This document shows positions 39,209 to 40,461 of a stretch of DNA of 64,000 nt, in pieces (position 1 is the first letter of the stretch; every line of letters starts with the position of its first letter). The stretch is taken from the NCBI GenBank assembly GCA_026398255.1, contig JAPLTG010000022.1, forward strand, positions 1 through 64,000. The letters run 5' to 3'. A model generated the notes under the pieces. That model did not search any database, was not told where the DNA came from, and was given only the letters and a program-made list of their open reading frames with translations. Made by a program: the position numbers and the translations under genes. This DNA comes from Verrucomicrobiota bacterium (GTDB lineage: Bacteria; Verrucomicrobiota; Verrucomicrobiia; Chthoniobacterales; Terrimicrobiaceae).

Positions 39209-39247
39209 GGTGTAGCGCTCCCCGCGCGTGCTAGGCCTTGCTCTTAT

Positions 39248-39320
39248 CATGTAAAGAAAAATCACTTTTCTTTACATGAAATAGGCCATGCGATAAGGAA
39301 GTGCCACTTTTCTTTATATG
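39248..39320 (+). promoter_or_regulatory. Inverted-repeat operator upstream of the Fic gene
   Basis: CATGTAAAGAAAA (39248-39260) is the exact reverse complement of TTTTCTTTACATG (39266-39278) across a 5-base spacer. A third half-site, TTTTCTTTATATG at 39308-39320, repeats the second arm with one change exactly 42 bases further on and ends on the ATG of the Fic gene. The layout fits autoregulation by the winged-helix tail of the Fic protein. Confidence 0.7.
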
Positions 39321-40394
39321 AGCAAGCTCTCTCCACTTCCTTTGGCTGACATGAGTGCGTTGGACAGCCGCGAGATTTGGGCGTCATTGACGGAGGCGCA
39401 CCGGCATTTGGCTGAGCTGAAAGGGCTTTGCGAATCGCTTCCGAATCAGGGCATCCTGCTGGATACGCTGAGCATTCAAGAGGCGAAGGACAGTTCGGAG
39501 ATCGAAAACATTATCACCACGCATGACGAGCTATACGCCGTTCAAGGGGATTCGGCGAGTCCGGCGGCGAAAGAGGTGCGGCATTATGTCAGCGCTCTGC
39601 GGACTGGCTATGATGCGGTGCGAACTTCGGGCTTGATCCGGTTGGAAACAGTGTTGGCCGTGCAAGCGGAATTGGAGCAAAACCGCGCCGGACTGCGGAA
39701 GTTGCCGGGCACCGTTTTGAAAAATGAATCCTCCGGTGCCGTAATTTACGAGCCACCGCAGGACGCGGCGGAGGTTCAATCACTGATGGGGAACTTGATC
39801 GACTTCATACACGCTGAAGATGGCTTGGACCCCCTAATTCGCATGGCGATCACCCACCACCAGTTCGAAAGCATTCATCCGTTTTACGACGGAAACGGAA
39901 GGACAGGCCGCATCCTGAATCTGCTGATGTTGCAGCGCAATGGCCTACTGGATTTGCCCGTGCTTTACCTGAGTCGCTACATCACGACAACGAAGCGTGA
40001 CTACTACCGACTGCTGCAAACAGTGCGGGATGAAAGCCTCTGGGCGGACTGGTGCTTGTATCTCCTCCGTGGAGTGGCTGTGACATCGCGAAGCGCGATT
40101 GCGTTGGTGAAAGCTTTTCGCGATCTCATGCTCAAGACGAAGCACGACCTGCGCGAGCGAGTGCCCAAGCTCTACAGCCAGGATTTGCTGAACAATCTTT
40201 TCCGCTACCCCTACACAAAAATTGAGTTCATCGAAAACGAGCTTGGTGTATCCCGACCGACGGCTGGCAAATATCTGGAGCAACTCACAGCGGCGGGTCT
40301 GGTGCGCAAACAACGGATGGGCAAGACGAACTTCTACATCAATGACCCGCTGTTCGACCTGCTCAGCAATGTCACGCTGAATACAAACCAGTGA
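39318..40394 (+). CDS. Fic-domain protein with autoinhibitory motif and winged-helix tail
   Basis: A 358-residue Fic protein. The core motif HPFYDGNGRTGR (residues 187-198) has all catalytic positions of HxFx(D/E)GNGRxxR, so it should transfer AMP from ATP to target hydroxyl groups. The N-terminal helix carries SSEIEN (59-64), which fits the (S/T)xxxE(G/N) inhibitory motif of class II Fic proteins. The C-terminal 75 residues form a winged helix (FIENELGVSRPTAGKYLEQL) likely to bind DNA. The operator at 39248-39320 abuts its start. Base composition looks less G/C-rich than its neighbours, a hint of transfer. The target is unknown. Confidence 0.9.
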   Translation: MSKLSPLPLADMSALDSREIWASLTEAHRHLAELKGLCESLPNQGILLDTLSIQEAKDSSEIENIITTHDELYAVQGDSASPAAKEVRHYVSALRTGYDAVRTSGLIRLETVLAVQAELEQNRAGLRKLPGTVLKNESSGAVIYEPPQDAAEVQSLMGNLIDFIHAEDGLDPLIRMAITHHQFESIHPFYDGNGRTGRILNLLMLQRNGLLDLPVLYLSRYITTTKRDYYRLLQTVRDESLWADWCLYLLRGVAVTSRSAIALVKAFRDLMLKTKHDLRERVPKLYSQDLLNNLFRYPYTKIEFIENELGVSRPTAGKYLEQLTAAGLVRKQRMGKTNFYINDPLFDLLSNVTLNTNQ

Positions 40395-40461
40395 ATGAGC
40401 TGCAGGAAGTCATCCTGCAACTTGGTGATTACCTAAAGCTCAAGAGCTTTGATTTTTTGGA

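Follow-up and report, generated by a model that had tools for sequence, protein, structure and literature searches.

A phased array of inverted repeats before a SoFic-type fic gene as a probable autoregulatory operator

The intergenic stretch preceding the fic gene in the window (i.e., the whole 64,000-nucleotide stretch of DNA that was analysed) is probably an autoregulatory operator array, through which a SoFic-type Fic protein would repress its own promoter. The sites that form this array are unique in the genome, recur in phase before related genes and are inherited together with fic. From this arrangement we infer the binder (the Fic protein itself), the effect of binding (repression) and the identity of the trigger that would lift it.

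As judged from its sequence, the fic product is a SoFic-type class II Fic adenylyltransferase. Its Pfam domains (Fic_N, 1.8e-24; Fic, 6.9e-17; SoFic-like_C, 2.5e-21) span the whole 358-aa protein, the PADLOC SoFic model matches it at 369 bits, and it can be aligned end to end with the SoFic of Shewanella (3EQX; 4e-81) and the Sofic of E. coli (9VJC; 7e-77). Its score against the NCBIfam SoFic equivalog, NF046030, is 353.5 bits, below the cut-off of 550, and the protein is assigned to the broader SoFic family, outside that narrow equivalog. The translation contains both the catalytic pattern HPFx[D/E]GN[G/K]RxxR and, towards the N-terminus, the inhibitory pattern [S/T]xxxE[G/N]. A sequence-only reading of this DNA had attributed to the protein a C-terminal winged helix and an SSEIEN inhibitory motif in the same chain, and both are present, the former as the SoFic-like_C domain and the latter at residues S59-N64 (Table 1).

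Table 1. Features of the fic locus and positions of related elements
Feature	Position	Strand	Basis
fic gene, SoFic subfamily, 358 aa	39318-40394	+	Pfam Fic_N, Fic, SoFic-like_C; PADLOC; NCBIfam
Operator 1, perfect inverted repeat TCATGTAAAGAAAA-ATCAC-TTTTCTTTACATGA (L1 39247-39260, R1 39266-39279)	39247-39279	n/a	
Operator 2, degenerate: L2 GCGATAAGGAAG (39290-39301), R2 TTTTCTTTATATGA (39308-39321)	39290-39321	n/a	
Candidate promoter inside R1/L2: TTTACA (39271-39276), N15, GATAAG (39292-39297)	39271-39297	+	inference only
Class II inhibitory motif S59-SEI-E63-N64 ([S/T]xxxE[G/N]), SSEIEN	39492-39509	+	translation; conserved in relatives
Catalytic Fic motif HPFYDGNGRTGR (H187-R198)	39876-39911	+	translation; Pfam Fic 6.9e-17
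C-terminal winged-helix domain, SoFic-like_C, residues 270-344	40125-40349	+	Pfam 2.5e-21
Putative recognition helix VSRPTAGKYLEQLT	around residues 311-324 of the Fic protein		alignment with relatives
36-aa ORF in the window, GTG start overlapping the fic stop (GTGA)	40391-40501		
Loci of relatives with hsd genes	L005, L037, L038, L041, L055 (downstream of fic); L062, L064, L066, L073, L096, L106, L109		

Upstream of this gene lies operator 1, an inverted repeat whose right end is separated from the ATG at 39318 by 38 nt. It had been described as a perfect 13-bp repeat with a 5-base spacer; the perfection and the spacer of 5 nt are borne out, but the arms are 14 bp long, not 13. Among perfect inverted repeats with arms of at least 11 bp (spacer of up to 12), it is the sole example in the 64-kb window, and 100 dinucleotide shuffles of the window produced no match to the full operator pattern. 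When the 2.6-Mb genome was searched for the half-site with at most one mismatch, only L1, R1 and R2 were recovered. R2, which matches the half-site at 13 of 14 positions, is offset from R1 by exactly 42 bp and contains the start codon, as anticipated in the earlier proposal of a third half-site 42 bases from its partner and reaching the start codon. However, the idea of an operator made of three half-sites had to be abandoned, as a fourth, degenerate half-site (L2) is present and the locus carries two phased operators. Because the position of L2 is occupied by a GTGATAAGAAAA-like sequence in most close relatives, we describe the array as two operators with four half-sites. A candidate promoter may be placed inside R1 and L2, and a scan for the sigma-70 consensus returned no match.

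In the mechanism proposed here, Fic dimers would bind the inverted half-sites RTGWWWAGAAAA through their C-terminal winged helix. The unit of the array recurs every 41-42 bp, about four helical turns, and neighbouring dimers would consequently lie along one side of the helix. Once bound, the dimers would occlude both the promoter and the region of the start codon and so repress fic. Until infection or stress relieved the repression, the cell would thus hold few copies of an AMPylating enzyme that is self-inhibited and potentially toxic. As expected for an autorepressor of the CccR type, the promoter region of fic contains inverted repeats.

Autorepression by a Fic protein with a wHTH is known once, in CccR of Yersinia pseudotuberculosis, a protein with a Fic domain and a C-terminal HTH that was experimentally shown to repress its own gene (PMC9755527). 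CccR and the Fic protein of the window are both class II enzymes, with an N-terminal inhibitory helix and a C-terminal DNA-binding domain. By contrast, they differ in their half-site and in their Fic subfamily (the N-terminus of CccR is DUF4172; PMC10628234), and CccR is secreted by the T6SS. The CccR operator consists of one pair of 10-bp sites, AGATAATCAT-N26-ATGATAATCT, an arrangement not found upstream of fic in the window, where 14-bp arms flank a 5-nt spacer and are repeated after 42 bp. As the CccR operator is a single pair of sites 26 bp apart, the array must be considered a different design. CbFic2 of Coxiella burnetii is also a class II Fic protein with a wHTH; it binds DNA, and its activity depends on the dimer, although its binding was assayed with random DNA, showed no clear sequence specificity, and no specific operator is known for it (PMC10628234).

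The closest characterised proteins are anti-phage defence proteins, namely Shewanella SoFic (SO_4266; 3EQX/3ZCN) and E. coli Sofic (EcSofic; 9VJC) (PMC12249575, PMC3667792). They share their domain order and whole-length homology with the Fic protein of the window, and a phased array likewise precedes the E. coli gene, but they are about 40% identical to it and their recognition helix and half-site differ. DNA binding by SoFic has been stated as not demonstrated (PMC10628234), and no report of it for the Shewanella or E. coli protein appears in those parts of the literature that were searched. Similarly, phased operator arrays upstream of SoFic genes are nowhere described in the open-access literature that was searched.

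Conservation of the array was examined in 103 loci, window included, which were gathered by protein similarity alone. Half-sites were counted in the 200 bp preceding each fic, with stretches of gene bodies as controls, and at least two in-phase pairs of half-sites were considered an array. At least one half-site was observed in 79% of the loci (28% of the controls) and at least three in 62% (2% of the controls). The sequence-only reading had staked its proposal on conservation of the repeat upstream of related genes; the repeat is indeed widely conserved, with tight spacing, and phased arrays with a 41-42-bp period precede fic in 63 of the 103 loci and none of 105 gene-body controls. Across the 103 loci, the distances between half-sites on the same strand peak at 41-42 and again at 82-84, those of inverted pairs at 17-18 and those of everted pairs at 22-24. 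A motif-free scan found a direct repeat that outscored all 15 shuffles in 49 of the 103 loci, with a period of 41 or 42 in 42 of them. The array recurs before related fic genes in several bacterial phyla, and the number of its units varies between loci, from the two operators of the window to four or more elsewhere; for instance, Histophilus somni carries 42-bp units in an almost perfect tandem array. As the neighbours of fic in the window (fumC and a PepSY-like gene) were found near none of the fetched relatives, we conclude that the array is inherited with fic and not with its genomic place.

It could be argued that such repeats reflect a nucleic-acid structure, such as an mRNA hairpin or a remnant of recombination or transposition, instead of protein-binding sites, given that the palindrome is perfect and that fic is mobile between genomes. 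This seems highly improbable. Multiple units are repeated at a fixed period of 41-42 bp, many of their arms are imperfect, and they reach well upstream of any likely transcript; neither mobile-element ends nor duplications were seen at the site. Moreover, it is the half-sites that are conserved and not the spacers: among the window and its seven close Verrucomicrobial relatives, pairwise identity is 0.72 for L1, 0.87 for R1, 0.71 for L2 and 0.77 for R2, while in the same eight sequences it is 0.28 both for the operator-1 spacer and for the gap between operators, and 0.27-0.34 over all spacers, the gap and the upstream flank.

There are relatives without the array, mostly in one clade (20 rows, SH-aLRT 99). 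In this clade, fic often overlaps or closely trails the preceding gene and, therefore, there is no space for a promoter. In the whole set, the array is rarer where fic overlaps the upstream ORF or starts at most 45 nt from it (4 of 19 loci) than elsewhere (59 of 84). A phage-borne origin was also considered and rejected; one unannotated phage contig holds a relative, which has no visible array.

The number of sites suggests a second alternative. At least five sites are present in 38 of the 82 loci with in-phase sites, often beyond the needs of simple repression, and the Fic-bound array might thus serve mainly as a docking or allosteric platform where dimers gather and the ratio of AMPylation to deAMPylation is set, or where the enzyme is kept in store until phages infect the cell. 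We consider this unlikely, as the array occupies the promoter and overlaps the start codon, the regulatory and toxic activities of CccR were reported to be independent (PMC9755527), and autorepression is the simpler reading. Arrays of at least five sites could provide sharper repression or, alternatively, a platform that additionally controls enzyme activity (compare CbFic2; PMC10628234).

Operators of this kind were also searched for in 288 genomes of the phylum. Twelve of them matched, compared to one for a backward control pattern, and in seven of the twelve the site is immediately upstream of a SoFic gene. When the genomes of six relatives were tested separately, four had a single pattern match, directly before fic, and two had none. 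The other five matched genomes of the phylum are G198, G023, G192, G199 and G181. In G198 (L119:230-390, 414-593), a four-unit array with a 42-bp period adjoins a 90-aa ORF that corresponds to a stand-alone SoFic-like winged helix (about 50% identical) without a Fic domain, and in G023 the match adjoins the 3′ end of a different kind of Fic gene. G181, of an Akkermansia-like genus, has an array of two to three 42-bp units (L125:1500-1600) and only distant Fic matches, with no SoFic gene; its array is possibly a relic or a site regulated in trans.

The array of G181, in a genome without a SoFic gene, would also be compatible with a model in which another regulator (a host factor or the repressor of a defence island) targets the repeats, and the wHTH of Fic binds elsewhere or binds nothing. 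A precedent exists in RptR, a separate autorepressor that binds repeats before type I RM islands. Like the proposed Fic, RptR represses its own phage-defence promoter (in type I RM or DarTG islands) through several repeated palindromes; unlike it, RptR is a small, unrelated protein without a Fic domain, and its palindromes (TAGCTA) lie in 9-bp direct repeats (PMC12255303). Nevertheless, regulation by such a factor is very unlikely here. In the fetched flanks of the relatives, fic has no further regulator gene as a conserved neighbour, and the half-site differs between Fic subfamilies with different recognition helices. Additionally, the array accompanies fic across phyla and among differing neighbours, so that a foreign regulator would need to be ubiquitous.

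Phased arrays also precede more distant Sofic genes (on plasmids and in E. coli), with a different half-site, ATGTCGATAA. Their spacing is near 40 in rhizobial Sofic genes, while those of E. coli, Cedecea and Pantoea show spacings of 40 plus 30, that is, 70-bp units, in which ATGTCGATAA alternates with ATGTTTA. In several of these distant genes, the final half-site abuts the ATG. In E. coli DA33133 (L153:460-700), for instance, units with the form ATGTCGATAAAA-N5-TTTTTTAAACAT are located upstream of fic about 70 bp apart, the final one abutting the ATG. The E. coli Sofic gene was found in 278 of 5426 E. coli genomes. Sofic matches on plasmids of Roseibium, Sinorhizobium and R. etli (L133, L141, L142) are unannotated and apparently interrupted; in that of Roseibium, the frame stops after 40 aa, yet palindromic sites of the ATGTCGATAAA type remain upstream.

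The recognition helix reads AKRQ[AT]A in the distant Sofic proteins and VSR[PIL]TA in those of the window type. In raw counts, at least two window-type sites precede the genes of 66 of 74 proteins with [ST]R[PILVM]T, compared to 2 of 11 with HRNT, and the association between helix and array, also raw, comprises 60 cases with both, 35 with neither and 13 and 10 mixed. When the wHTH was left out of tree building, the eight supported independent contrasts gave no signal and the link was not significant. Given this lack of signal in phylogenetically independent pairs, the covariation is not counted as proof, and the raw counts are no more than suggestive of half-site and recognition helix varying together.

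Regarding genomic context, fic genes of the SoFic type frequently sit inside type I restriction-modification operons: genes for type I restriction (hsd) were found in the fetched flanks of about 30 of 105 relatives (Table 1), and representative neighbours were confirmed as REase_I, MTase_I and Specificity_I, also by Pfam. In the clade of the window, the fic stop of several relatives overlaps, at an ATGA, the start of an HsdR-like gene and, thus, the array would control both genes. No hsd gene adjoins the fic copy of the window. EcSofic has been reported with a 47-aa antitoxin, AS1, encoded downstream, whereas the window has only an unconserved 36-aa ORF overlapping the fic stop. This ORF was rejected as an AS1-like antitoxin, as it has no Pfam match and no visible counterpart in the relatives; the ORF that overlaps fic there is mostly HsdR-like. 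Just past fic, at 40435-40456, the sequence AAAGCTC-AA-GAGCTTT followed by GATTTTTT forms a weak hairpin with a T-run that is possibly a terminator; a scan for consensus terminators found nothing, this hairpin included.

According to the authors of the work on CccR, almost nothing is known about the modulation of class II Fic toxins (PMC9755527). EcSofic is reported to be toxic unless it is tightly repressed. For the control of these toxins, Sofic phage-defence proteins included, the array is a concrete candidate element. A bolder proposal, which we put forward as a doubtful but conceivable one, is that SoFic defence toxins assemble on an ancestral, phased array of multiple dimers that keeps both the gene silent and the enzyme inactive, that phage-triggered disassembly would switch off both effects and that, where fic and hsdR are co-transcribed, the array would act as a control switch for type I restriction. 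Beyond this, the array gives a predicted half-site for each SoFic subfamily, its 41-42-bp repeat sets a geometric constraint on the packing of dimers along DNA, and a connection of Fic proteins with type I restriction operons is also suggested.
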